From NCBI RefSeq assembly GCF_003815775.1, contig NZ_CP033927.1, forward strand, positions 1-30,209: 30,209 nt of DNA, written 5' to 3'. A model generated the notes under the pieces. The model made no database searches. It saw only the letters and a program-made list of their open reading frames with translations, and was not told the DNA's origin. This document shows, piece after piece, positions 997 to 15,762 of this stretch. This DNA comes from Chryseobacterium joostei (GTDB lineage Bacteria > Bacteroidota > Bacteroidia > Flavobacteriales > Weeksellaceae). The position numbers and the translations under genes are program-made. Within the stretch, counting starts at the first letter, position 1; every line of letters starts with the position of its first letter.

Positions 997-3900
997 CTAA
1001 TATTTTGATTTTCCTTTACTTTTATTGTTTCCTTTTTTAATATTTGGTTTTTTATTTCTCAGATTATTAGTAGTAATAAGCCCGGATAAAACAGTGGTTA
1101 AATGGTTCATATTTTGATTATTTCCTATAGATTTCAAGCTCTCTTTTAAACTTTGATAATTCGCTTTATCTGCACTCGTGAAAAACATATCTTTTTCAGT
1201 CATTCCATTCTTTTTTAATTCAAAGGCAGCTCCCTTAAAGTTACCATTCTCAGTAAGAATATTAATCTTCCTGTTTACTTGTGCCTTTTCCTCATTTCCT
1301 TTCCCAAAATGATTGAGAATTTTTTCCTGGAGAACTACATCCGTTTTAATTTGGAAGCTTTTCTCTGTAGCGTTGGAACTATTCACCAGGGAAAGCTTAA
1401 TTCCTGAATTTTTTTCTTCTATATGTATACCTTTTGAATTTAAATACTCCTGCTTATTAGGAATATCATTAGTAATTGCCTTATTGAAATAGTAGTCTAT
1501 ATAATTCTTTTCCGCAATTCCTTTTAATACAGAAATATCTTTTTCCGGAAGCTTGTCTTTAATTTCTTCCACTACTAGCATTTTATCCGGAATCTGCATT
1601 TTTCCTTCATTTCCTGATACTTCATTAACCATATCCTTTATAACAGGGGAATAGAATTTATATACATTATTCTCAGCAACAAATTTCTGTAGCTCTGAAT
1701 CTATTTTAATATCTGTTTTCATTGTATATTTTCCGGTTTTCTCTGTTACTCCCCCTTCATCATTTCTAAATCCTTGTAGGGCTAATAAGGCTGCCGGATT
1801 TTCAAAAGTTTTTGACAGAGTGAAGTTAGCATCCAAAGACATTTTTTCTTTCATAATTGCCTGTTCTATTGCATCCGGAGAACTTATTTTTTCTATAAAA
1901 TCTTTTATTTTATTATCATCTATTTTATGGTCCTGGGTAAGTTCCTTAAATTTCTCTAATGATAAATCTTTGTTAACCGATATATATTCTAAAAGGTCAC
2001 TATGATAAGATGCTTTTTGCTCTTTTACTATAGTGGAGAAGGCTTCATTAAGTACCATACTATCCCCTAGTTCTTGAAACCTTGGTTCATCATTCTTAGT
2101 GAAGAAAATATCTTTCTCTGTTAGACCATTATTCCTAAGCTCCATTGCTACTCCTACATAATTTTCGCTTTCTATAAGAGTATGTATTTTCCTGTGAATC
2201 TGTGCTTGTTCCGGGTTATCTTTTCCTACTTGCTTTAAAATATTCTCTTGCAATACGGAATCAACTTTTATCTTTTCTTCCTTTTCTATAGCTGTAGAAG
2301 AGTTAACCAGGGAAAGTTTACTACCATTCTCCTGTTCATCAACCTGTATACCTTTTGAATTCAAATATTCTTGCTTATTTTGGATATCCTCTTCTATTGA
2401 CTTGTTAAAGTAATAATCAATATAGTCTCGCTCAGCTACTCCTTTTAATAAGGAAACATCCTTTTCCGGAAGCTTGTCTTTGATTTCTTCTACTACTAGC
2501 ATTTTTTCCGGAAGCTGCATTTTTCCCTCATTTCCTGATACCTGTTGTACCATATCCCGGATTAATGGAGAATAAAATTTATAAACATTGTTTTCAGCTA
2601 TGTAGTTCTGCAGTTCTGCATCTACCTTCATTTTTGTTTCTACAGTATGCTTTCCTGTCTTTTCAGTTATTCCAGGTATTGAAGGTCTGTCTTCTGTAGC
2701 AGGAATCTCTTGGCTTCTATATCCTTGTAGGGCTAATAAGGCTGCCGGATTTTCAAAAGCTGCAGCTAAATTTATATTTCTCTCAATATTTTTTTTCTCG
2801 GAAGACTCTGCTTTATTGATTGACTCCTGAGTACTCATTGAATCTACAAACTTTTCTATTTTCTCTGCAGGAATATTTTGTTCTTTCACTACCTCTGCTA
2901 TTCCTTCTGCAAAAAGAGTCTTTTTCTGAGACATATTCTCTAATAAAGTACTTCTATAATCTACTCCTGCTTCTCTTATGAAGAAATACAAAGAATCATT
3001 AAGTAATTTATTGTGTTCTTTGTCCTCTGTGTAAATTTTCCAATCTTCATTACTTTTCAAAATTTCTCGCTCTGTTTCCGGAAGAATCTCAATGTTAACT
3101 CTTGACCAAATTTTATCTTCTATTGCTAGTCTTGACTTAATTACCTCTTTATCATTTTCAACCTCTTGGTGATTTAGTTTTTCCCCTAGAGGTTTTAAAA
3201 AATCTTGTTCTAAGCCTTTCAAAAGGAATGGTTCTGTATAACCTTCTATTTTTGCTGATAAATTAGCTCCATTTTGGACTATTTCTATTCCATGCTTGTT
3301 TAGATATTCCAAAACTTTTTCCGGTTCCATTTCGGTCTTAAAAGCCCTGTTTTTAGTATCAATACCATACTCTTTATTTATTAGCTTTTCCAGTTCAGTT
3401 CGATATTCTCCCTGCAGCTCTTCAATTTTAAATAGCTTTTCATGAGCAAAATATATATCTTTTGTAACTTTCACCTGGTAATCCGGAAGTTTCTCTTTTT
3501 TCTCTTTCTCAGGTTCATTGGTTTCTTTTAGTTTCTCCGCTCTTTCTTCTATTTTCTCAGTTATATTTCGTATTCCCTTTAAAGTATTTTGTACCTCGAA
3601 TGGCAAAGGTTCTTTTGGGTTAAAAAGCTTTTCTACTACGGCAATATTATTGACTCCTGTAAATGAGTAATAAGTTTCTTTATCAAATCTCCTCTGCTCC
3701 TTCTCCTGTTCCTGGAAAGATTCTACTACTTTATCTAAAGTTCTATTTTTTTCAGAAAAATAAGTTCTGAGAGATTCATTTTCCTTGTCTGTGAGGAAGC
3801 CTTTAAGCTCATTGTATTGTTTACCTACTTCCAGGTAATTAAATATGTTCTCTTTCTGATAAATATCCTGAACAAAAGATGAAGTAAATCCCTGGGCTTT

Positions 3901-4989
3901 CATGTCATTTCGATAAGCAAAAAGAGCCTCAGTATAAATTTTATTTTTTAATTCTGGGCTGAGTTCTACTTTTGTTTCTTCGCTCAATTTTGAAGTATCT
4001 AACTTTTTTAAATCATTACTATTGAAAGCATTTTTACTTACTTTATCAATAAATATATATCCTGTTTTTTCATTTTTTATGATTTCAATTGACTTACTGT
4101 AATTGTTAAAATCTTCTATTTTTATTTTTTCAAAAACTTTCAGTTCTTTTTCAAACCTTGCCTGAAATGAAAGTAATTTTCCATAATTTTTAGATGCGTT
4201 TTCAAAATTTCCCTGGATGGATTCTTTTAATTTTGGATGGGAAAATTTTTTACTTAAATCACTTCCGGAAACTGCTAAAGTTCCTTTCTCTTCAACATAT
4301 CTTCCTTTAACTTTATCAGTTACTGCAAAAGATACCCCGGTGAAATTTTTCTTATTTGAAACATAAGTCTCAATGTGATATTTTTCTTTCAATATTTGCT
4401 GAAAATCATTAAACCTCCGGGGCTTTAATGTCATCACTTCTTTTACAGATTGAGTTAAATAATTTTTATAATCTGCAGATTTATTTAATTCTACATGATT
4501 CTTTTTATCTATTGAAATTTCTTTTTTAATACTAGAAACTATTCTTAAACCGTGCTTTTTTTCTAAGCCCCGGTTAATTTCCATGAGTCTGTATTGTTCC
4601 CAATTTCGGGAAACTTTTGTTCCATCATCTTTAATAGAATGTGTGATGATATGAATATGAGGATGGTCTTGGTCATGATGTCTAACTGCCCAAACTGGCT
4701 GCTCACCATAACCCAATTTTTCTAGGCATTCCCTGGTTATTTCTTCCATCTTTTCATTGGTCAAAATCTCCTTATCTTCTATGGGAAAATTAAGAGAAAG
4801 ATGTACGTAAGGGTCTGCCATACTGTCATCAAGTTTTGAGATTGCCTTAAAAGACAATTCTACAGATTTTTTACTATTATCGTCAATTCCTTGTGAATAT
4901 AATTTTTCTGCTACCCCTTCTTCTATCTTCTTAAAATGGTAGTTAGTAAGGCTCTCTAAAGTGCCTACATGAGTAAGATTACCTATCAT
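997..4989 (-). CDS. mobA: MOBP-type relaxase with long repetitive C-terminus
   Basis: The relaxase nicks one strand at oriT, stays covalently attached to the 5' end through a tyrosine and pilots the strand into the recipient. The N-terminal 150 residues match the relaxase/mobilisation nuclease family (PF03432 type). Tyr17 in LTNYHFKK is the likely nucleophile, and residues 104-113, HHDQDHPHIH, are the three-histidine metal-binding motif. The protein is 1330 residues, much longer than the 300-500 usual for mobilisation relaxases. The extra part is Glu/Lys-rich and has no recognised helicase or primase motif. It contains a tandem duplication of about 317 residues (about 667-983 and 984-1300, landmark FENPAALLALQG at about 745 and 1062), and a weaker third relative near 560-625. 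It follows mobC by 6 nt and is followed by two small genes. The start is the first ATG of the frame, 11 codons before the conserved LxxLxxY region. The family call is strong; the symbol is generic. Confidence 0.9.
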   Translation of the reverse strand: MIGNLTHVGTLESLTNYHFKKIEEGVAEKLYSQGIDDNSKKSVELSFKAISKLDDSMADPYVHLSLNFPIEDKEILTNEKMEEITRECLEKLGYGEQPVWAVRHHDQDHPHIHIITHSIKDDGTKVSRNWEQYRLMEINRGLEKKHGLRIVSSIKKEISIDKKNHVELNKSADYKNYLTQSVKEVMTLKPRRFNDFQQILKEKYHIETYVSNKKNFTGVSFAVTDKVKGRYVEEKGTLAVSGSDLSKKFSHPKLKESIQGNFENASKNYGKLLSFQARFEKELKVFEKIKIEDFNNYSKSIEIIKNEKTGYIFIDKVSKNAFNSNDLKKLDTSKLSEETKVELSPELKNKIYTEALFAYRNDMKAQGFTSSFVQDIYQKENIFNYLEVGKQYNELKGFLTDKENESLRTYFSEKNRTLDKVVESFQEQEKEQRRFDKETYYSFTGVNNIAVVEKLFNPKEPLPFEVQNTLKGIRNITEKIEERAEKLKETNEPEKEKKEKLPDYQVKVTKDIYFAHEKLFKIEELQGEYRTELEKLINKEYGIDTKNRAFKTEMEPEKVLEYLNKHGIEIVQNGANLSAKIEGYTEPFLLKGLEQDFLKPLGEKLNHQEVENDKEVIKSRLAIEDKIWSRVNIEILPETEREILKSNEDWKIYTEDKEHNKLLNDSLYFFIREAGVDYRSTLLENMSQKKTLFAEGIAEVVKEQNIPAEKIEKFVDSMSTQESINKAESSEKKNIERNINLAAAFENPAALLALQGYRSQEIPATEDRPSIPGITEKTGKHTVETKMKVDAELQNYIAENNVYKFYSPLIRDMVQQVSGNEGKMQLPEKMLVVEEIKDKLPEKDVSLLKGVAERDYIDYYFNKSIEEDIQNKQEYLNSKGIQVDEQENGSKLSLVNSSTAIEKEEKIKVDSVLQENILKQVGKDNPEQAQIHRKIHTLIESENYVGVAMELRNNGLTEKDIFFTKNDEPRFQELGDSMVLNEAFSTIVKEQKASYHSDLLEYISVNKDLSLEKFKELTQDHKIDDNKIKDFIEKISSPDAIEQAIMKEKMSLDANFTLSKTFENPAALLALQGFRNDEGGVTEKTGKYTMKTDIKIDSELQKFVAENNVYKFYSPVIKDMVNEVSGNEGKMQIPDKMLVVEEIKDKLPEKDISVLKGIAEKNYIDYYFNKAITNDIPNKQEYLNSKGIHIEEKNSGIKLSLVNSSNATEKSFQIKTDVVLQEKILNHFGKGNEEKAQVNRKINILTENGNFKGAAFELKKNGMTEKDMFFTSADKANYQSLKESLKSIGNNQNMNHLTTVLSGLITTNNLRNKKPNIKKGNNKSKGKSKY
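1090..2991 (-). repeat. In-frame tandem duplication inside the relaxase gene
   Basis: Two copies of a unit of about 951 bp (317 codons) lie head to tail, roughly 2041-2991 and 1090-2040. Paired landmarks sit 951 bp apart: the string encoding FENPAALLALQG (about 2721-2757 and 1771-1806), KMLVVEEIKDKLPEKD, and KQEYLNSKGI. Parts of the DNA are almost identical between copies, while others have diverged to about half identity at protein level, so the duplication is not recent but is kept in frame. Confidence 0.85.
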
Positions 4990-4995
4990 TGCATC

Positions 4996-5376
4996 TTATT
5001 TATCTAAAAGCTTAATCAAATTATCATTGATTTGAGTATTTTTTTCTAAAATGGACTTCAATAGAAAGAAAATTTCACCTTCTTTTTTTATTCCGGAATT
5101 ATAAAACTTTGTTAACTGATTAAGATTGGTTCCTTGTTTATTAATTTCTCTTACCATAGCATAAAAATCTTCTTTTGGAATTCCTATGCTTAGTCCAGGT
5201 GAAACATTTTTAATTTCCTTGTAAACACAATATCTCAGAAATTTTGAATTATTACCCCCGAAATAAATTGCTGACTTCTCTTCTATTTTTTTCCTTTCTT
5301 CTTCATTAAACCTGACAGTTATTCCTTTCTTAAACTCTTCTTCCGGAAGCTTTTTTTTTGTTCGGCTTTGACTCAT
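4996..5376 (-). CDS. mobC: MobC-like relaxosome accessory protein
   Basis: This protein (126 residues from the chosen start) binds oriT DNA as part of the relaxosome and helps the relaxase load. It has the form of the MobC/NikA family: a basic N-terminus (SQSRTKKK), a ribbon-helix-helix-like segment (ITVRFNEEERKKIEEKSA), then the family signature near residues 85-100, INKQGTNLNQLTKFYNSG. The frame is open upstream to 5553, but that extension reads as a Phe/Ile/Tyr-rich run unlike any MobC, and the family begins close to MSQSR, so I chose the ATG at 5374-5376. The stop is 6 nt before the relaxase ATG, so the two genes form an operon. The upstream region is very AT-rich and may contain MobC binding sites. 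Confidence 0.85.
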   Translation of the reverse strand: MSQSRTKKKLPEEEFKKGITVRFNEEERKKIEEKSAIYFGGNNSKFLRYCVYKEIKNVSPGLSIGIPKEDFYAMVREINKQGTNLNQLTKFYNSGIKKEGEIFFLLKSILEKNTQINDNLIKLLDK

Positions 5377-5595
5377 TTTGAAAAAATATAAGTCAAAGAT
5401 AAACAATAAAAAATAAAAAATGTAATACATATCTACACCTTGCTTATTGATTGATTCAATAGAGGGGCGAAAAATTTCTGTTTTAATACTGATTATCAGA
5501 TATTTAATAAATATTTCAACTTTTGAAAAGTCCAAAAAGATACTTTTTCTCAAAAATCCATTATACTCTTATAATTACTTAAATTTCAATTAATT

Positions 5596-5674
5596 ATAAA
5601 ATAATTAACTTTTAACGTTTTTATTTTCATGAGATAATATTTTTATATGTACACATAAAATAATTAACTTTTAA
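5596..5674. repeat. Pair of 20-bp direct repeats upstream of mobC
   Basis: The string ATAAAATAATTAACTTTTAA occurs at 5596-5615 and again, identical, at 5655-5674 (59 bp apart). The first copy overlaps an inverted repeat (5590-5608). Spaced repeats beside a relaxosome gene are candidate binding sites for MobC or for the product of the divergent gene at 5791; the low complexity of the region weakens this. Confidence 0.6.
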
Positions 5675-5763
5675 AAATACTTTATAATATACTATAATAA
5701 ACATCTAAAATATAGATAATTATGATTATTATAATTTTAATAAATATTAATAAAAATATATCG

Positions 5764-5771
5764 TATATTTG
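5764..5771 (+). promoter_or_regulatory. Candidate -7 box of the gene at 5791
   Basis: TATATTTG matches the Bacteroidota -7 consensus TAnnTTTG and lies 19 nt before the ATG. No TTG or TTTG is seen 19-21 nt further upstream, so only half of the promoter is supported. Confidence 0.45.
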
Positions 5772-5790
5772 AAAATATTTTTAACTAAAA

Positions 5791-6345
5791 ATGAAGATAA
5801 AATACAGACTTAAATATTCAGGAAAAATGGACGAATTACTTGCTCCTTATATTGGAAAAAAGCTTGTAATTTCAGTAGAAGAATTCAGAGAATTTTTTAA
5901 CGTTCCTAATATAAAAACATCATCAGCTCTAGTACAAAAAATTATAGAAACCTGTAAGAGAGAATTTGATGAATTGGAGCAAATTAATTTCAATTTTGAA
6001 GTAGCTAAAAAATTTAAGAAAACTCAATTTTTCATTTTTTATCCTTACAATAATGAACCTAACTTTTTTTTAAGCTCCATCCAGGATAAATTTAAAATTG
6101 AACCTGAAAAGGAAAAATATATTGAACCAACAAAAAACTTATCCTTTGAAGAAATAAGCACTCCAGTAATTGCCCAGGAAGAAAAAATTATTCCCACAGA
6201 ACCGGAAGAAATTGAAGAAGAAAAAGTAAAATATGAGTTTGAAAATTTCACAAATTTTAAAGTACCTGATTATGATAATTTTAATACCGATGATATACAA
6301 TCCGGGTTAGAAAGAATAAGAAAAATGCGCCAAAATGGCGGATAA
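5791..6345 (+). CDS. Small winged-helix protein resembling the C-terminal half of a Rep initiator
   Basis: This 184-residue protein has an N-terminal part (about residues 10-90) that reads like the second winged helix of Rep_3/RepB-type initiators. It has a helix with ISVEEFREFF and a short loop, then a recognition-type helix (ALVQKIIETCKREFDEL) and a beta wing ending in FFIFYP. The same arrangement occurs in the C-terminal half of the full-length initiator at 7365-8513. Residues 100-160 are a Glu/Pro/Lys-rich linker and the end is a short basic helix (ERIRKMRQNGG). There is no first winged helix, so it cannot be a complete initiator. It may be a DNA-binding regulator of copy number or of mob genes. 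It is divergent from mobC and followed by a strong terminator. The fold assignment is from pattern only. Confidence 0.5.
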   Translation: MKIKYRLKYSGKMDELLAPYIGKKLVISVEEFREFFNVPNIKTSSALVQKIIETCKREFDELEQINFNFEVAKKFKKTQFFIFYPYNNEPNFFLSSIQDKFKIEPEKEKYIEPTKNLSFEEISTPVIAQEEKIIPTEPEEIEEEKVKYEFENFTNFKVPDYDNFNTDDIQSGLERIRKMRQNGG

Positions 6346-7083: not shown

Positions 7084-7366
7084 ACACTTTTGGAGGTCGT
7101 TATTATAAAACACTGGTTTTCAATAGTATTTTTATGCTAATTTTCAATTTACTCCGACACTTTTGGAGGTGGTTAGAATATACTCCGACACTTTTGGAGG
7201 TCGTTAATGATATACTCCGACACTTTTGGAGGTCGTTAATGATATACTCCGACACTTTTGGAGGTCGTTAATGATATACTCCGACACTTTTGGAGGTCGT
7301 TAATGATATACTCCGACACTTTTGGAGGTCGCAAATGTTAAAACTCCGACACTTTTGGAGGTCGTT
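7084..7366. repeat. oriV: Iteron array, predicted oriV
   Basis: Seven copies of a 22-24 bp unit with core ACTCCGACACTTTTGGAGGT begin at 7151, 7182, 7214, 7246, 7278, 7310 and 7343, with a period of 31-33 bp. A truncated eighth copy (ACACTTTTGGAGGTCG) lies apart at 7084-7099. Each unit contains a short inverted repeat CTCC/GGAG. The period of three helical turns places all copies on one DNA face, as expected for initiator-bound iterons. The last unit overlaps the stop codon of the rep gene (7365-7367). The spacers between copies 2-6 are identical, so the array has expanded recently. It is directional, and the repeats vary little, which fits iterons and not CRISPR spacers. Confidence 0.92.
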
Positions 7367-8513
7367 ATACATACTTTTCATACTCTTTTGACAGTTCTTC
7401 GGGAAAAGAAGTTGCCATCCATTCCATTTTTTTTGCGAGGTCTGGCGTTGCTGTACTTTTATGAAAATCTATATATGTAGTCCTTTTACTATCAGAGTCT
7501 CTCTTACTATCTTTCAGCCATTCTGAATAATTATGCTTTAATTCAGCTAACGGTAAAAACACGGCTTCCGGGTATCTTCTTTTATATGCTGCTAATAACA
7601 AATTTCTTAATAAGCCTTGTTTCACTTCTTTCCAGGCTTTCTCTCTTTCTACTTTATTTAAAGGTTCATTTGCTCCAGTTTCTAAATGAAATTTTATTCC
7701 ATATTCAAATTTATGATTGGGTAATGTAAACCAGGAAAATGAGACCCCTTTATTCTTTAAGTCCGGAAGTTCAAGTAACTCTGAAAAAGCCTTTTTAATT
7801 TTTTTCTTAATATAACTTGCTTCATTGCTATCAATTCCTAGAATTGTCTTAATTTCATCAAAATCAAGTTCTTTTATACTTTTGTTATTACCCACCATTT
7901 GATTAATGGTGTCTTTAATCTTAAAATAAAGTCCATCATTATTTTTTCGTGTAGAAATTTTCAGAGAATTAATATTTACATCAAAAAATAGAAAAGATAG
8001 ATTAGCAATGAATTTTTCACTTAGTTCATAGTCATATACTTTTTTAAAAGTCTTTCCTACTTTTACAGTTCTTATATTCAAAGAAGTTATGAATTGGATA
8101 CTATCAACTCCCTCTCCCTTTTTATATTTTGCTATTTTGGTGTAATAAAACTTTCCTTTTTCTTTTGGAAAATGGAATATATCTGTAAATAGACAATACA
8201 ATGAATTTTCAAAAACTGATTCAAAAACAGGTATTTCTGCAGCTTCTAATTCTTCTATTGAATTTTCTCTTAGTTGTCGTGGATTTTTATGTTTAGTCCA
8301 AATTACATGCTGTGGCTGTAAATTGAATTCTTTACAAAACTTTACAGGGTCTAAAACTCCATTACCAAACAAATCATGTTGATGCTGATGAGCTAGGTAG
8401 ACGAGTAATAAAAACATTAGTTTGCCATCATCCAGGCTGTATTTTTTAAAATGTAGATAATGATATGAAATATTTTTATCTACTCTAACCATATTTGTTG
8501 TGAATGCTGTCAT
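7365..8513 (-). CDS. repB: Plasmid replication initiator, Rep_3-like
   Basis: This 382-residue protein is predicted to bind the adjoining iterons and open the origin. It has the two-winged-helix layout of Rep_3/RepB-type initiators. The first domain is in about residues 10-150, including the helical LDDGKLMFLLLVYLA region usual at the start of these proteins. The second is about 175-280, with the FDEIKTILGI helix, a positively charged helix (ASYIKKKIKKAFSELL) and a wing ending SFSWFTL/KFEYGIKFHLE. The C-terminus (about 290-382) is basic with several Trp and Arg residues (KRRYPEAVFL, WLKDSKRDSDSKR). The iterons lie just 3' of the gene, the last one overlapping its stop codon. The start is the only ATG consistent with the conserved N-terminus. 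A perfect palindrome (8549-8562) and a -7-like box lie in the upstream region and could be its control site. Confidence 0.85.
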   Translation of the reverse strand: MTAFTTNMVRVDKNISYHYLHFKKYSLDDGKLMFLLLVYLAHQHQHDLFGNGVLDPVKFCKEFNLQPQHVIWTKHKNPRQLRENSIEELEAAEIPVFESVFENSLYCLFTDIFHFPKEKGKFYYTKIAKYKKGEGVDSIQFITSLNIRTVKVGKTFKKVYDYELSEKFIANLSFLFFDVNINSLKISTRKNNDGLYFKIKDTINQMVGNNKSIKELDFDEIKTILGIDSNEASYIKKKIKKAFSELLELPDLKNKGVSFSWFTLPNHKFEYGIKFHLETGANEPLNKVEREKAWKEVKQGLLRNLLLAAYKRRYPEAVFLPLAELKHNYSEWLKDSKRDSDSKRTTYIDFHKSTATPDLAKKMEWMATSFPEELSKEYEKYV

Positions 8514-11509: not shown

Positions 11510-11540
11510 TGTATTTTGAATGTTTAAAATTAATAAAATA

Positions 11541-11584: not shown

Positions 11585-11878
11585 TTATCTTTCTCTTGGA
11601 AAGCATAGAACTGAATTCTCAAAGTAGAATTTCATTTTATTGGCATTGCATCCAGGCAGCTCAATAGTACTCCAAAAAATCTTGTTATAATTCCCATCAT
11701 CCAGGACAATTGTAAACTTACTTTTGTGTTTTCTTTTGATTCTCCATACCTGGAACTCTTCTCTTTTAATTACTTCCAACTCTTGAAGCTTTACGATTGC
11801 CCTCATAAGAATTGTTGAATTTTGGTCTATCAAAAATCTTTGCAAACCGCTGGTAATATAAAATTGGGCTTTCTCCAT
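11585..11878 (-). CDS. Small hypothetical protein
   Basis: This 97-residue basic, soluble protein is of unknown function. The N-terminus looks helical (FYITSGLQRFLIDQN and TILMRAIVKLQELEVI); the remainder is beta-rich (FQVWRIKRKHKSKFTIVLDDG, NKIFWSTIELPG, KFYFENSVLCF). Its two Cys residues do not form a metal motif. It follows the 58-residue gene (11890-12066) by 11 nt in the same direction. Small basic beta proteins are common in plasmid leading regions, but nothing here identifies a known anti-restriction family. Confidence 0.6.
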   Translation of the reverse strand: MEKAQFYITSGLQRFLIDQNSTILMRAIVKLQELEVIKREEFQVWRIKRKHKSKFTIVLDDGNYNKIFWSTIELPGCNANKMKFYFENSVLCFPRER

Positions 11879-11889
11879 TGTAATATTTT

Positions 11890-12066
11890 TTAGTCCTCTA
11901 ATTCTGTAAAATATCCATTTAGCGAAGTTGCTTGATAAGATAAATATTCCTCAGATTCATCTGCTTGAACATATTCTATATTATCTCCTGCAGATAAAAA
12001 TTGTTGCTCACTCATTACTGAATACTCATCATTTTCATGGTCGAAAATTAAATAATACGTTTCCAT
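11890..12066 (-). CDS. 58-residue acidic protein
   Basis: This short gene starts at ATG 12064-12066 (METYYLIFDHENDEY) and ends with TAA at 11890-11892. The product is very acidic: Asp and Glu make up over a quarter of its residues, and there are almost no basic ones (VQADESEEYLSYQ). Small, strongly acidic plasmid proteins can mimic DNA, as Ocr and ArdA do, but there is no recognisable homology and this is only a suggestion. The gene has the shared GTTAAATAACTTAA motif 12 nt upstream and is followed closely by another minus gene, which supports it being real. Confidence 0.6.
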   Translation of the reverse strand: METYYLIFDHENDEYSVMSEQQFLSAGDNIEYVQADESEEYLSYQATSLNGYFTELED

Positions 12067-12077
12067 TATTTAAAATA

Positions 12078-12099
12078 TTTTGGTTAAATAACTTAATTA
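12078..12099 (-). promoter_or_regulatory. Shared accessory operator/promoter motif, copy 2
   Basis: GGTTAAATAACTTAATT lies 12 nt upstream of the ATG at 12066. It differs at one base from the copies upstream of ssb (13649) and of the gene at 14243. It overlaps the last codon of the upstream small gene (12097-12195). Confidence 0.6.
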
Positions 12100-12195
12100 A
12101 AAATTAAACTTATCTACTGCCATTATCAAAATTACTGCAGCAAATAAAAGAAAGATACCCATTCTAGGGCTTAAAGTGTCTTGGTGTGGTTTCAT
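12097..12195 (-). CDS. 32-residue single-TM peptide
   Basis: The ATG at 12193-12195 opens a 32-codon frame, MKPHQDTLSPRMGIFLLFAA and on through VILIMAVDKFNF, ended by TAA at 12097-12099. It has a short polar N-terminus and one hydrophobic helix (about residues 12-27), the form of a small inner-membrane peptide. Its start lies 3 nt after the stop of the preceding minus gene (12199-12435), so it is probably translated by coupling. Its size makes it easy to miss; the tight spacing is the main support. Confidence 0.5.
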   Translation of the reverse strand: MKPHQDTLSPRMGIFLLFAAVILIMAVDKFNF

Positions 12196-12198
12196 GAC

Positions 12199-12435
12199 TT
12201 ATTTTTTTTTGGTTAATTTTTCTAGCTCTCCGGATTTATTGTTGATGATAAAATCTAAAGTTCCTACTTCTATTGAGTTATTAGGAATTTCATCGTTATC
12301 AATCATTTCCTTAGCCCTTGCGTTGGCTTCTTGCTTATGAGCGTTGTAACCTTGCTCATAACCAATGTAAAATTCTGCGGTTAAAATAGATGCTCCTATT
12401 ACAATACCGATTAGTACTAAAATTGTTCTTTTCAT
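12199..12435 (-). CDS. Small membrane-anchored protein, first gene after repeat copy 1
   Basis: This 78-residue protein has one N-terminal hydrophobic helix (residues 4-24, ILVLIGIVIGASILTAEFYIG), either a membrane anchor or a signal sequence without a clear cleavage site. A polar helical region (HKQEANARAKEMIDNDEI) and a basic end (LEKLTKKK) follow. It is unrecognised. It is the first gene downstream of the 592-bp repeat copy 1: its ATG (12433-12435) is 20 nt from the repeat end. The next small gene begins 3 nt after its stop. Confidence 0.65.
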   Translation of the reverse strand: MKRTILVLIGIVIGASILTAEFYIGYEQGYNAHKQEANARAKEMIDNDEIPNNSIEVGTLDFIINNKSGELEKLTKKK

Positions 12436-12454
12436 AGTAAATTAAATTTTGGGG

Positions 12455-13046
12455 TTATATTTTAAAAATTATTTGCTTTGTTTTCGAGGACAATCTGTTT
12501 TCTCTGAGAGATGGAGAGTCCTTTTGAAAAAGCATACTTAATGCTGTTTTTTTTGTTGTTCCGGTGATGTCAAAGAACGCAGCTCTTATTTACTTGCTTC
12601 GTTACTGAGGATTCGTTTTTCTGTGCCAATTAACCATGAAATTTTCTAGGGCTAAAAATGGGAAAGGTGTCAGGCGTAGTTTTTTGTGGAAGGTTTGATT
12701 TTTTTTTTAGCCAAAAAAAAAAATTGAATACCCAAAAAACTATCTAGCAGAAAAATTTTTATCACTATAAAATTTCAAATTTGCACAAAGAAAATCGTTA
12801 TCATTCAGTAACAAAGAAGTGAGTGAATAAGAGCTGCAAGGGTTCTTTGTATCATCAACCGGGGCGACAAAAAAAACAAACATTAAGGCTTTTTCAAAAG
12901 AGGACTTTCCATGATTAAAAAAATTCCAAAACTTAAACCAGGAAGGGAAAGGAGGGGAGGGTTTAGGTTTTGTCCTTATGGATTCCGGGAGAAGTTTTCC
13001 CTGGGGACTTAGCCAGGGAAAAGCAAAGGGAAATTTTCTTCCGGAT
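12455..13046. repeat. 592-bp direct repeat, copy 1, with giant foldback
   Basis: This segment recurs almost unchanged at 14791-15382. By eye the only differences are one T in the TTTTT run at the start, a two-base change near 12502, and one A in a poly-A run. It does not encode a plausible protein. Within it, 12511-12911 is a giant imperfect palindrome centred near 12711. Exact blocks in the left arm reappear as reverse complements in the right arm, in order: TTTTGAAAAAGC, CTTAATG, CAAAGAAC, GCAGCTCTTATT, GTTACTGA, TAGTTTTTTG, and a poly-T facing a poly-A. A purine-rich G-run tract follows (about 12940-12962), then a perfect 10-bp stem (TTTTCCCTGG 12995-13004, CCAGGGAAAA 13013-13022). It lies directly upstream of the minus gene run beginning at 12435. 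Confidence 0.9.
12464..12494 (-). promoter_or_regulatory. Candidate minus-strand promoter at the edge of repeat copy 1
   Basis: On the minus strand ATTG (12494-12491) is followed after 19 nt by TAATTTTT (12471-12464), one base away from TAnnTTTG. The spacing is correct for the Bacteroidota housekeeping promoter. It lies just outside the foldback and about 29 nt before the ATG at 12435. The same sequence is present in copy 2. Confidence 0.45.
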
Positions 13047-13282
13047 AAAAAACACAATAGCGAAGGGAGAGCTGGGGGATTGTGGACTTTTCTTGAAAAT
13101 AGGGAAAAAAGGAGAGGGAAAAGAAAGGCGGTTTTCCCATTTTTCATTTATTTATAGCTCAGCGATCCTGACGAAATTTTTATAGAAAAATTATGACAGG
13201 ATTGCTATCCTTTTTAAAGCGGGCTAGTCCATTTCGGACTATTCCCTAAAACTTAAATAAAGCCCTATTTAGGGCTCTATTT
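13047..13282. other. Non-coding region with nick-like hairpin, between repeat copy 1 and ssb
   Basis: No gene is seen here. It begins with a purine-rich stretch (13060-13130), followed by a strong interrupted hairpin at 13163-13205: outer arms ATCCTG (13165-13170) and CAGGAT (13197-13202), inner arms AATTTTT/AAAAATT around ATAG. ATCCTG is the core of the IncP/MOBP nick sequence; here it occurs on both strands of one hairpin, and on the minus strand it is preceded by AGGATAGC, an extra small inverted repeat. A third hairpin, TAGTCC-ATTTC-GGACTA, lies at 13225-13241. The hexamer ATCCTG also occurs by chance elsewhere in coding DNA, so oriT is only a candidate reading. Confidence 0.45.
13261..13276. 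terminator. Terminator downstream of ssb
   Basis: AGCCCTA and TAGGGCT form a 7-bp stem with a 2-base loop, directly after the ssb stop (13283). T-rich sequence follows on both strands. Confidence 0.75.
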
Positions 13283-13615
13283 TTAAACTATGTTGCTAAC
13301 TATGAAATTCACATTAGTATAGGTTTTTTCATCCTTTGTGGTTGTTGATATTTCTATCTTATTACTTTCCACAATGATTTTAGTACCTTTTTTCAAACTG
13401 TTCAATAATTGCTCCGGTGTTTCTCCGGAAGTCATCCACCTAACACAATTATAATACTGTGGTTCATAGATGGTTTTTTGATTTTGGTCTTTCTTTGCTG
13501 TTGGGAAGTTGTGAGCCACTGTGAAGTTTAAAACTCCTTTGTCTTCCGCTAGTTTTCTGAATGTTGCATCTGCAGTTAAATGACCGTCAAAAACAACGTG
13601 AAATAAATTTGCCAT
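13283..13615 (-). CDS. ssb: Single-stranded DNA-binding protein
   Basis: This 110-residue single-OB-fold SSB coats single-stranded DNA, probably protecting the transferred strand in the recipient or replication intermediates. Family features are the start ANLFHVVFDGHLTADATFRKL, the GVLNFTVAHN strand, the aromatic YYNCVRW block near residue 55, GTKIIVES, and the final strand VNFIVSNIV. Odd feature: the protein stops right after the OB fold and lacks both the flexible linker and the acidic DDDIPF-like tip that recruits partner enzymes in chromosomal SSBs, so it may be a coating-only form. It is the last gene of the run downstream of repeat copy 2, has the shared GTTAAATAACTTAA motif 34 nt upstream, and is followed by a terminator. 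Confidence 0.9.
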   Translation of the reverse strand: MANLFHVVFDGHLTADATFRKLAEDKGVLNFTVAHNFPTAKKDQNQKTIYEPQYYNCVRWMTSGETPEQLLNSLKKGTKIIVESNKIEISTTTKDEKTYTNVNFIVSNIV

Positions 13616-13648
13616 AATTGATTGATTTTAAAGATTAAATATAAAATA

Positions 13649-13670
13649 TTTTAGTTAAATAACTTAATTA
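13649..13670 (-). promoter_or_regulatory. Shared accessory operator/promoter motif upstream of ssb
   Basis: AGTTAAATAACTTAATT with flanking ATATTTT lies 34-55 nt upstream of the ssb ATG (13615). It is identical over 20 bases to the copy at 14271 and one base off the copy at 12078. The core AGTTA-AA-TAACT is an inverted repeat, so a dimeric regulator is plausible. Confidence 0.65.
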
Positions 13671-13676
13671 ATTTGA

Positions 13677-14243
13677 TTAATACCATGAACTCCAACTTAA
13701 TTTTGAGCCATCGTATTTAGAAGCGTCCTGCACCTCATTTATTTTTACAGATGCATATTTTGTAATTCTCTTTTGAAAAGGTTCTCCCCTTAGAATTTCT
13801 TTATTTGGTGTGCAAGTTCCGTGGTCTTGACCTTCATACTCCCTATTCTGACCGATTTCTTGAAGGGTAACCGTTGAATTAGTTCGGCTTATTACCAGGT
13901 AAAAATTAATGTTCGTTTGCTCATACCCCCAACTCGAATAAAGGACTGTTCCCTCCTGGATGGCATCAGCTATTTTTTTTCTATTGTCAAAGAATTCCTT
14001 TTTCTTTTCTGCAGTTTTATTTAAGACATCTTTTATACCTGCTATTTTCTCCGCTCTGCTATCTTCTGAAATAGTTCTATTGTAGTATGCAGGATTAATT
14101 TTCCTTCCACTAAAAACCATATAATAAAAGCAATCTAGCTTTTCAAAAGTAACTATTAAATTGCCTTCAAAATCTTCATTGTTAATATTTGTTGCGCCTT
14201 GAGTATATAAGCTTATGACCTCTTGTCTAGTTCTTTTTTTCAT
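13677..14243 (-). CDS. Hypothetical plasmid protein
   Basis: This 188-residue soluble protein has two parts. The N-terminal half (1-95) has a basic start, a strand-rich middle (LIVTFEKLDCFYYMVFSGRK) and a helix (LNKTAEKKKEFFDNRKKIAD). The C-terminal half includes GTVLYSSWGYEQTNINFYLV and VTLQEIG. That segment resembles a small beta domain (start xxxLYSSWGYdQTN) that I recall from unnamed accessory proteins of many plasmids; no function is known to me. It lies between ssb and another unknown, with the shared operator motif 28 nt upstream of its ATG (14241-14243). A role in establishment after transfer is inferred from position only. Confidence 0.7.
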   Translation of the reverse strand: MKKRTRQEVISLYTQGATNINNEDFEGNLIVTFEKLDCFYYMVFSGRKINPAYYNRTISEDSRAEKIAGIKDVLNKTAEKKKEFFDNRKKIADAIQEGTVLYSSWGYEQTNINFYLVISRTNSTVTLQEIGQNREYEGQDHGTCTPNKEILRGEPFQKRITKYASVKINEVQDASKYDGSKLSWSSWY

Positions 14244-14270
14244 AATATTTTTATTTAATTATTTTAATTA

Positions 14271-14292
14271 TTTTAGTTAAATAACTTAATTT
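14271..14292 (-). promoter_or_regulatory. Shared accessory operator/promoter motif, copy 4
   Basis: AGTTAAATAACTTAATT, 28-49 nt upstream of the ATG at 14243. It is the same sequence as the copy upstream of ssb. It overlaps the A-run leading into the hairpin at 14294. Confidence 0.65.
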
Positions 14293-14293
14293 A

Positions 14294-14314
14294 AAAGGGG
14301 AATTTCACCCCTTT
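14294..14314 (-). terminator. Hairpin at the end of gene 14313-14786
   Basis: AAAGGGG and CCCCTTT pair around AATTTCA, overlapping the stop codon at 14313. On the minus strand it is followed by TTTTAAATT, so it may be a weak terminator or attenuator between two genes of the run. Confidence 0.5.
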
Positions 14315-14786
14315 ATTTTATTTTTTTAAGATAAATTTCTCCTGGTTCTCTGTCTCCGTAAACATGTGTTACAGACACTACTTCATAAAGAGTAGTACCA
14401 AACTTAAAATTCTCTTCTTTTTTCGGTGGAGAAAAGAAATGTTCATCCGAGATAAATTTTCTTTTTTTCCCTTCTCTTACTTCATACACGTAATACATTC
14501 TTTCCATCCTCATGCATATTTCAGATACTAATTCCGCCATTAAACTTTCTTTCCATTGATTTTCTGGAAAAATCGGCGGTAACCCTGGATTTGATAATGA
14601 TTTAAAAAATCTTCTGTCCAATAAATCATCCAGGTAAATTTTTAAAGAGTCATTGGTATCATTTTCATTTATAAGGCTTATTTTATGGTTTCCATGCTCT
14701 AACTCTTGCACGTCATTAATGATAAAAATCTTTCCTGTGCTTACTAATTTAAACTTAGTATTTAATAATTGCTTTTTAGTTCTCAT
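14313..14786 (-). CDS. Hypothetical protein, first gene after repeat copy 2
   Basis: This 157-residue soluble protein is unrecognised. The N-terminal 60 residues are beta-rich (FKLVSTGKIFIINDVQEL, HKISLINEN, LKIYLDDLLDRRFF) and could be a small barrel. A Pro-rich stretch (LSNPGLPPIFPEN) leads to a helix (LMAELVSEICMRMERMYYV), and another strand region (TTLYEVVSVTHVYGD) follows. No catalytic or metal motif is seen. Its ATG (14784-14786) lies 5 nt from the end of repeat copy 2, so transcription and translation signals for it must be inside the repeat. Confidence 0.65.
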   Translation of the reverse strand: MRTKKQLLNTKFKLVSTGKIFIINDVQELEHGNHKISLINENDTNDSLKIYLDDLLDRRFFKSLSNPGLPPIFPENQWKESLMAELVSEICMRMERMYYVYEVREGKKRKFISDEHFFSPPKKEENFKFGTTLYEVVSVTHVYGDREPGEIYLKKIK

Positions 14787-14790
14787 ACGT

Positions 14791-15382
14791 TTATATTTTT
14801 AAAAATTATTTGCTTTGTTTTCGAGGACAATCTGTTTTTCCTGAGAGATGGAGAGTCCTTTTGAAAAAGCATACTTAATGCTGTTTTTTTTGTTGTTCCG
14901 GTGATGTCAAAGAACGCAGCTCTTATTTACTTGCTTCGTTACTGAGGATTCGTTTTTCTGTGCCAATTAACCATGAAATTTTCTAGGGCTAAAAATGGGA
15001 AAGGTGTCAGGCGTAGTTTTTTGTGGAAGGTTTGATTTTTTTTTTAGCCAAAAAAAAAATTGAATACCCAAAAAACTATCTAGCAGAAAAATTTTTATCA
15101 CTATAAAATTTCAAATTTGCACAAAGAAAATCGTTATCATTCAGTAACAAAGAAGTGAGTGAATAAGAGCTGCAAGGGTTCTTTGTATCATCAACCGGGG
15201 CGACAAAAAAAACAAACATTAAGGCTTTTTCAAAAGAGGACTTTCCATGATTAAAAAAATTCCAAAACTTAAACCAGGAAGGGAAAGGAGGGGAGGGTTT
15301 AGGTTTTGTCCTTATGGATTCCGGGAGAAGTTTTCCCTGGGGACTTAGCCAGGGAAAAGCAAAGGGAAATTTTCTTCCGGAT
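14791..15382. repeat. 592-bp direct repeat, copy 2, with giant foldback
   Basis: Nearly identical to 12455-13046, offset by 2336-2337 bp and in the same orientation. The foldback occupies about 14848-15247 (centre near 15047), followed by the G-run tract and the 10-bp stem (15331-15340/15349-15358). Identity ends sharply at TTCCGGAT in both copies; the flanks (purine-rich and AAAAAACAC after copy 1, GGGTGAAGC after copy 2) are unrelated. The other end stops 5 nt before the ATG of the minus gene at 14786. Confidence 0.9.
14801..14831 (-). promoter_or_regulatory. Candidate minus-strand promoter at the edge of repeat copy 2
   Basis: ATTG (14831-14828) and TAATTTTT (14808-14801) are separated by 19 nt, the same as in copy 1. 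The -7 box lies about 15 nt before the ATG at 14786, giving a very short leader. It would drive the run 14786 to ssb. Confidence 0.45.
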
Positions 15383-15528
15383 GGGTGAAGCTTGGCAGCG
15401 TTAGGAATTGAGCGGTATGTTTGAAATCCTTTTTTTTGAGAAAAATAAATAAATAAATAAAAAAGTCCAAAGAGATAATTCTCGAAAAAAAAGATTGAGT
15501 AGCGAAAGTCCGACCTTTAGGGAACGCC
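15383..15528. other. Intergenic segment after repeat copy 2
   Basis: No gene is seen. It contains an imperfect AGGA/TCCT hairpin followed by eight Ts (about 15402-15438, a weak plus-strand terminator), an AAAT tandem run (about 15443-15460), a copy of AGTCCAAAGAGATA (15464-15477), and a perfect 7-bp stem TTTAGGG-AACG-CCCTAAA (15516-15533) overlapping the stop codon of the next minus gene. Confidence 0.6.
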
Positions 15529-15762
15529 CTAAATTTGTTTAATATAGACCGTATTTCCTTCTATCTTATCTATCTTGGTGTAAATCTTCCTTTTAGGTTC
15601 TTCCATATCAAAATCAATCTGTTTACCGACTTGAGGAAAATCATTTTCTTCCATTCCTCCAACTACAATAATAATACCCCTAGGAATAATAATAGTTTTA
15701 CCTAGTTTACCTGGAACTTTCAAAATTTCTTTAACTGCAAATTGTACTTTCTTTTTACTCAT
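15529..15762 (-). CDS. Small hypothetical protein
   Basis: This 77-residue protein (from MSKKKVQ) is basic and beta-rich: strands VQFAVKEILKV, KTIIIPRGIIIVVGG, KQIDFDMEE, KIYTKIDKIEG and TVYIKQI suggest a small five-stranded barrel. It is unrecognised. The frame is open for 12 more codons upstream (to 15798), but MQFCFINLKFNI looks like intergenic sequence read through, so I use the ATG at 15760-15762. It is divergent from the transglycosylase gene, with a TTACGG/CCGTAA hairpin (15817-15832) between them. Confidence 0.6.
   Translation of the reverse strand: MSKKKVQFAVKEILKVPGKLGKTIIIPRGIIIVVGGMEENDFPQVGKQIDFDMEEPKRKIYTKIDKIEGNTVYIKQI

Follow-up and report, generated by a model that had tools for sequence, protein, structure and literature searches.

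What does a large non-coding foldback do when it stands, in two nearly identical copies, immediately upstream of two gene runs of one plasmid? The question is raised by a 30,209-base stretch of Chryseobacterium joostei (the whole of contig G000:C2, here called the window), evidently a conjugative plasmid, which carries genes for a relaxase, a NikA/MobC-like protein, a TraG-type ATPase, a coupling protein, SSB and ParA. Two copies of a 592-bp element (W1 and W2) head minus-strand runs in it, W1 19 nt from the start codon at 12435 and W2 4 nt from that at 14786, and the second run contains ssb (PF00436), as an initial annotation had described. We give a probability of about 0.76 to the reading that this element is a single-strand promoter like Frpo of plasmid F, which would form when the strand folds and would be used by the Bacteroidota housekeeping sigma factor. 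A folded promoter on the entering strand is suggested by four features taken together, namely a G·T asymmetry between the arms, a promoter-type box in the 3' arm, a bulge on the template side, and the recurrence of box and bulge in a second family.

The two copies differ in four alignment columns (two 1-nt indels and two adjacent substitutions; 99.7% identity), which agrees with the near-identity first reported for them. That the element encodes protein is unlikely; the one longer open reading frame in copy 1 (12740-13147, minus strand, 135 aa) spans the palindrome. The giant foldback of about 400 nt claimed for each copy is there, with self-matches of 71%, and each strand folds beyond its shuffles. 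The + strand of 12440-13060 reaches -129.8 kcal/mol against a mean of -62.1 in 20 shuffles (z -14.7), and the - strand of the copy 1 region reaches -117.7 kcal/mol (z -10.6), which is weaker than the + strand.

A blastn search of relatives (E<=0.001) gave matches to the element in 36 of the 173 genus genomes and in 58 of the 320 family genomes. These counts include the host itself and 15 genomes whose matches were very short (only 27-51 bp); the 15 were left unfetched, one of them (L033) being viewed and showing no SSB. Three loci (G063, G040 and G045) were viewed as 3-kb stretches only. Two plasmids in PLSDB carry the element, from Chryseobacterium shandongense and Elizabethkingia anophelis, neither with an annotated gene beneath the match, and the 592-bp unit is therefore not confined to the window plasmid; a query with the type found in integrative and conjugative elements (ICEs) adds a C. 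taklimakanense plasmid with two copies. Phage records gave no match, and an order-wide scan of 395 genomes with the ICE element query returned, outside the family, only matches of 24-46 bases (E 7e-5 to 9e-4).

Altogether 51 copies were examined, including both of the window, and 29 were kept as a deduplicated set after removal of near-identical ones and of W2. The first gene to the left encodes an SSB N-terminus in 38 of the 51 copies, at 15-81 nt from the left end of the element (one such protein, in L056, was checked). It is ArdC-like in four (PF08401+PF18818, two of them Pfam-checked; that of C. shandongense is annotated as a zincin-like metallopeptidase) and methyltransferase-like in one (G089), and in the remaining eight, both window copies among them, it has no assignment. 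ArdC is needed in the recipient, according to the available text of PMC7213743. Two elements are found per replicon in the window, G017, G117 and the C. taklimakanense plasmid, and per ICE in G029, G009 and G236. Copies within one replicon are 99.7%, 97.1% and 99.8% identical, and the window copies are about 80% alike to those of G017; near-identity within a replicon would fit homogenisation and fresh duplication alike.

To which strand does the fold belong? We aligned the arms with a score that treats both strands alike. Read on the + strand, their mismatches are G·T in 335 cases and A·C in 95, with a G·T excess in all 29 deduplicated elements, against an expectation of 251:179 from the composition of the arms alone, the 29 being related and their sites not independent. 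One element from each of four unlike subgroups (W1, G117a, that of E. anophelis and G121) gives 53 G·T and 15 A·C. By this measure a single strand is selected, and it is the template strand for the downstream genes; had selection acted on the 5' leader of a transcript of the minus genes, the excess would be the opposite.

Pairing is conserved among relatives. For the promoter stem, 20 ICE-type elements supply 1299 alignment cells, and 96.5% of these are paired, compared with 41-54% when the partner is slid. Changes on both sides of a pair occur at 15 pairs and in 47 cells, against maxima of 6 and 9 with slid partners and means of 8.9 and 13.6 in shuffles, in a test whose structure was derived from the same alignment, which favours the paired outcome, and from which the poorly aligning outer right arm was excluded. 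RNAalifold gave two-sided changes at 15 of 82 pairs for 20 ICE-type rows and at 19 of 51 for ten window- and plasmid-type rows.

The fold also carries a box. PMC9723704 and PMC7366714, in their available text, give TAnnTTTG as the -7 consensus and, for Bacteroides fragilis, TTTG as the -33 element; none was found at -33 in Flavobacterium johnsoniae. Of the 29 elements, 21 have an exact TAnnTTTG in the 3' arm as read on the + strand, where shuffling predicts 2.7; in the other eight, which form the window's group, the corresponding site reads CAnnTT[TC]GC. TTTG precedes the box by 16-18 nt in 19 of 29. We searched the 5' arm together with a 60-nt leader in the same way. Its minus strand, the place for an ordinary promoter beside the genes, has the box in 0 of 29 elements (1.9 expected), and its + strand in 12 of 29 against 10.9 expected, hence no enrichment; W1 and W2 have no TAnnTTTG on the minus strand. 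In the host, one of seven ribosomal RNA operon (rrn) leaders was read, and its boxes, TATCTTTGC and TACTTTTGCA, are of the same type. The initial annotation had instead placed a promoter, TTG-N19-TAATTTTT, at the element's edge; it can be read in the window, and it is the conservation that fails there, given the minus-strand result just cited, the conserved box being inside the hairpin and on the opposite strand.

In duplex DNA the 3'-arm box points away from the minus genes. In the folded strand the 3' arm would be non-template and the 5' arm template, and transcription starting at the box would therefore run into those genes. Minimum-energy folding further predicts a net 3-5 extra bases in the template arm at the -7 box in 26 of the 29 folds.

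Box and bulge recur in a second family of the order (f3), which we reached through PRTRC loci. The ThiF loci of that system were sought in 395 genomes of the class, of which 230 matched, and 15 places over the curated cut-off were fetched from 12 genomes, eight of the 15 places having no ssb in the stretch. All seven with an ssb match have an upstream foldback above the best of 8 shuffles, narrowly in two, and two of the seven, both in genome G321 of the second family, show the signature. Upstream of ssb in L159, L161, L169, L170 and L171, the last lying on the window host's own chromosome, there is a short (~200 bp), different foldback lacking the asymmetry. Using the G321 element in blastn against 349 genomes of the second family, we obtained matches in 43 and studied the 10 best places; the resulting set is nine elements from six genomes (G363 is not among the nine). 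All nine have TACCTTTGC, 59-70 nt beyond the apex, and all nine have a template-side excess of at least 3 nt in the -7 box. A core set of pairs around the box gives 53 G·T and 12 A·C. The adjoining gene has an SSB N-terminus in four of the nine, one of them Pfam-checked.

Scanning with the ICE query gave five genomes with a second, short match; three were studied, and in these ICEs (L043, L064 and L071) a second, diverged element is placed 6-10 kb leftward, which in L056 is the direction of MobC and relaxase. The template-side excess of at least 3 nt is present in all three second elements. Their spacer differs and the other arm has changed to match, by reading, since the alignment of first and second elements left the box region unaligned. 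In L064 a DUF6876 gene follows the second element.

Plasmid F served as a control. The stretches preceding its ssb and its gene at 64032 were taken, from their positions, to be Frpo2 and Frpo1. Their foldbacks are 317 and 318 nt long, the ratio of G·T to A·C is 10:3 in Frpo2 and 8:4 in Frpo1, and the transferred strand folds better by 7.3 and 10.0 kcal/mol, respectively. As far as the text of PMC9849209 available to us goes, Frpo1 and Frpo2 are 92% identical, lie ~5 kb apart and are required if the genes downstream of them are to be expressed early. Homologous sequences are present in ColIb-P9. F resembles the window in having two near-identical foldbacks in the leading region, one before ssb and one before another run, which in F contains a DUF932 gene (a DUF932 gene also follows ssb in the second-family locus L168). 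In F it is the transferred strand that gives the better fold and shows more G·T than A·C, on small counts. On the other hand, there is no relation in sequence. A blastn of Frpo1 and Frpo2 against W1, G011 and G321a gave one 20-nt match, to G321a (E 0.002), and none to W1 or G011. Frpo has canonical -35/-10 boxes where the Bacteroidota elements have TAnnTTTG; the Frpo2 fold has 8 unpaired bases in the 3' arm, as against a template-side bulge within the -7 box of the Bacteroidota elements. Further, the Bacteroidota elements, unlike Frpo, are also found in chromosomal ICE-like regions, and they are known from computation, whereas Frpo has been tested in vitro and in vivo. The proposal that Bacteroidota have an equivalent of Frpo, used twice in this plasmid, thus gains support from asymmetry, box, bulge, compensatory pairs, placement and the behaviour of F.

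Closest in approach to our work are the Frpo' and Frpo* candidates of Samuel et al. 2024 (PMC11541004), likewise computed single-strand promoters before anti-defence genes. In the portion of that paper at hand they were found through five known Frpo/ssi sequences or an E. coli-type -35/-10 consensus, and the stem Bacteroid has 0 occurrences in its main text as available. A search of the open-access literature, through titles and the beginnings of abstracts and exclusive of subscription papers and preprints, returned nothing on single-strand promoters in Bacteroidota.

Would the favoured strand be the one transferred? In the window, in the named plasmids and in L056 the leading genes read toward MobC/relaxase, which read away, an order from which we infer that the elements are on the leading side. 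Five related elements have a candidate origin of transfer (oriT), a small hairpin followed by TTYCCTCTTGC beside mobC/relaxase, and a relaxase nicks 3' of a hairpin of that kind. All five candidates have the same orientation relative to the element and are on the same strand as the favoured one; the hairpin of L080 is imperfect. Exact matches to the pattern in L058, L067 and L167 and a second one in L202 have no hairpin and were set aside as chance.

From these computed features, that is foldback, conservation, compensatory changes, strand asymmetry, box, bulge and placement, we infer the following course of polymerase use, strand transfer, timing and shut-off. In conjugation the + strand would enter the recipient with the region right of the MobC/relaxase genes first, and would fold back on itself as a hairpin, imperfect and about 200 pairs long. 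Its 3' arm would give the non-template strand with the -7 box TAnnTTTGC, preceded in the 19 elements mentioned by TTTG (the window version would be CAAATTTGCA without TTTG), and the 5' arm would give the template, where the 3-5 unpaired extra bases would leave the box partly open. RNA polymerase would start beside the box, exit through the 5' arm onto single-stranded DNA, and transcribe a leader of roughly 190 nt (estimated by hand) and then the leading genes, all before a second strand exists; these would be the ssb run and the DUF6876 run in the window, and an ArdC or methyltransferase-like gene in relatives. Once the complement is made, the arms would become separate duplexes and the promoter would switch off, because its box is then directed away from the genes and no intact one stands in the 5' arm. 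The element may also prime second-strand synthesis. On balance we lean slightly toward a broader claim, that Bacteroidota plasmids and ICEs have a widespread single-strand promoter class of their own, in which the box would be directed toward the genes only when folded, the 3-5-base bulge would be a built-in melted region that also breaks the 5'-arm box in duplex, and second-strand synthesis would be the off-switch. Such a box-plus-bulge design is not described for Frpo in the published accounts consulted, as far as their available text extends.

Several observations weigh against a folded promoter. The box of the window itself, CAAATTTG, is one deviation from the consensus and has no TTTG 16-18 nt upstream; ten of the 29 elements, the window among them, lack this TTTG, and eight of 29 share the off-consensus box. 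Ten of the 29 elements (4.3 expected) have TAnnTTTG on the minus strand within the 3' arm, never with TTTG 16-21 nt upstream. These boxes could serve as ordinary duplex promoters toward the genes, and since they would face the genes in duplex, a strict off-switch is weakened in those elements. As to the bulge, G117a has none, G068a has 2 nt and G104 misfolds. Part of the G·T excess, though not all, may come from a mutation bias between the strands, as composition predicts 251:179 and, in the leading genes of the window, 55% of fourfold sites are keto on the + strand. Further pair types in the covariation test are not above shuffles (30 vs 28.1; 132/500). Summed over wide spans, the nine second-family elements give 108 G·T to 60 A·C, and G1238a is reversed (2:3), its + strand folding no better. 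Five of the seven PRTRC ssb loci, which are outside the sequence family, have only a ~200-bp foldback, with G·T:A·C 13:15 in sum, and four of these five have no box in the 3' arm. The numbers of the plasmid F control are small and its two copies near-identical. The + strand is presumed to be the transferred one from gene order and from oriT-like hairpins of five relatives; the window has no hairpin with TTYCCTCTTGC, its interval 5554..5790 gave only AT-rich matches, and the pattern is in no excess over chance. Finally, the outwardly similar EGeRS1 is argued, in the available text of PMC8708921, not to be a single-strand promoter.

The alternative that survives best, which we consider unlikely yet worth keeping in mind, is a single-strand initiation site for priming or primosome assembly, like the single-strand origins and initiation sites sso and ssi. 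At such a site the box would only make primer RNA and the genes would use other promoters. It would need the same folded strand and the same box, and the + strand is indeed the one selected; the extra predicted hairpins of the 3' tail suit it, the ten minus-strand boxes of the 3' arm could drive the genes in duplex, and the title of the Frpo paper, too, names primer RNA synthesis. What speaks against it is the position, tied to the start codons of ssb, ArdC or methyltransferase-like genes, and the fact that every copy of the two-copy replicons heads a gene run. Initiation site and folded promoter are compatible, not exclusive.

An improbable account is control at the level of duplex or RNA as in EGeRS1, in which a repeated, structured leader would stop read-through until some mechanism lifts the block after transfer. 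EGeRS1 of the pLS20 family is, in the text of PMC8708921 at our disposal, a set of repeated structured sequences of 420-751 bp before establishment operons with ardC and methyltransferase genes, and the 592-bp element resembles it in size, in having several copies per plasmid, in standing before ArdC-like or methyltransferase-like genes in some relatives and in the clustering of the copies of one plasmid, which holds for EGeRS1 in almost all cases. The strongly conserved 5'-arm block would also be contained in a leader RNA. Against this, selection on such a leader of the minus genes should show as a G·U excess on their own strand, and the excess is on the + strand. By the same partial text, EGeRS1 has its non-template strand transferred, and its fold yielded no promoter; in the Bacteroidota element the favoured strand is the template and the fold carries a sigma-type box.

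A structured RNA of the + strand, non-coding or antisense, is very improbable. The excess of G·T, or G·U in RNA, on the + strand fits it, and the box could fire rightward in duplex; the box, however, is in the 3' arm, so the RNA would be without the 5' arm, and the + strand of 5' arm and leader is not enriched in TAnnTTTG (12/29 vs 10.9). Nor is there an Rfam family: the window has 0 matches at gathering score, and the seven sub-threshold matches at 12000-15700 are all far under the gathering scores of their families. Practically negligible is a mobile foldback like a miniature inverted-repeat transposable element (MITE), an alternative of the initial annotation that fits two near-identical copies with an inverted repeat, because blastn within the 4.9-Mb genome gave the two copies with their own reverse-complement self-matches and no others, the place before start codons is near-fixed, reading of both flanks showed no target duplication and the arms carry two-sided changes.

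Coordinates of the features discussed are collected in Table 1.

Table 1. Features of the element and its surroundings; positions are those of the window except in the last row.
Feature	Position	Strand	Remark
Element copy 1, proposed folded-strand promoter	12455..13046	+	Upstream of minus run starting 12435
Element copy 2	14791..15382	+	Upstream of minus run starting 14786, incl. ssb
Foldback, copy 1	12511..12912	+	Self-match 71%, fold; apex near 12710 (offset 256)
Arms of foldback, copy 1			Template of proposed promoter in 5' arm, non-template in 3' arm
Foldback, copy 2	14848..15248	+	Self-match 71%
-7-like box CAAATTTG, then CA, 3' arm, copy 1	12776..12783	+	Aligned with ICE-group TACATTTGCA
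-7-like box CAAATTTG, copy 2	15112..15119	+	
5-nt template-side bulge AACCA, copy 1	12632..12636	+	Opposite -7 box in folded + strand
Bulge AACCA, copy 2	14969..14973	+	Placed by sequence identity with copy 1
Conserved 5'-arm block CCGGTGATGTCAAAGAACG	12561..12579	+	Strongly conserved; would be in leader RNA
CGAGGAC near left end	12485..12491	+	Kept in most relatives
3' tail, copy 1	12912..13046	+	Two more hairpins predicted; resembles tails of the G017, G163 and C. shandongense copies
Relaxase, MobA/VirD2-like nuclease domain	997..4989	-	PF03432; presumed lagging side
NikA/MobC-like protein	4996..5553	-	PF21983
Presumed oriT interval	5554..5790		Position only
First gene of run below copy 1, 78 aa	12199..12435	-	Without Pfam or PADLOC family
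DUF6876 protein, run below copy 1	11585..11878	-	
First gene of run below copy 2, 157 aa	14313..14786	-	Without Pfam or PADLOC family
Second gene of run below copy 2, 188 aa	13677..14243	-	Without Pfam or PADLOC family
Plasmid SSB, within run below copy 2	13283..13615	-	PF00436, E 4.4e-11
Candidate oriT of relatives	L005 1613, L006 33168, L202 17464; L080 8865, L082 125		Plasmids (first three); contigs (last two)

The tail of copy 2 (15249-15382) likewise has two extra predicted hairpins, and the 3' tail is possibly a priming site or a block to read-through. We also considered a boxA antiterminator in the conserved block of the 5' arm and rejected it: genome-wide, GTTCTTTGACAT is confined to the two copies of the element, and no close match to it stands in the single rrn leader that was read. 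Elsewhere in the window, an iteron-like array of 32-bp direct repeats (7146-7363) adjoins a gene for 382 aa without Pfam family (7365-8513); the Rep3_C match is in a separate gene, at 5791-6345. A 39-nt operator-like repeat around TTAGTTAAATAACTTAAT recurs between minus genes at 11537, 12065, 13636 and 14258, and a motif of the AGTCCAAAGAGATA type, in direct and inverted copies, is intergenic at 6342, 6993, 15449 and 16810. The 3' half of the relaxase gene contains an internal duplication (1361-1660 and 2282-2581, 76%).

If the 592-bp element is a folded-strand promoter, expression from incoming single-stranded DNA would not be an enterobacterial speciality and would occur in Bacteroidota too. 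The pre-opened -7 box would then offer a simple test case for a promoter that exists solely in single-stranded DNA. Bacteroidota ICEs and plasmids carry many unnamed leading genes, and the elements would mark the establishment and anti-defence operons among them, with SSB, ArdC, methyltransferase-like and DUF6876 proteins and the first genes of the two window runs.

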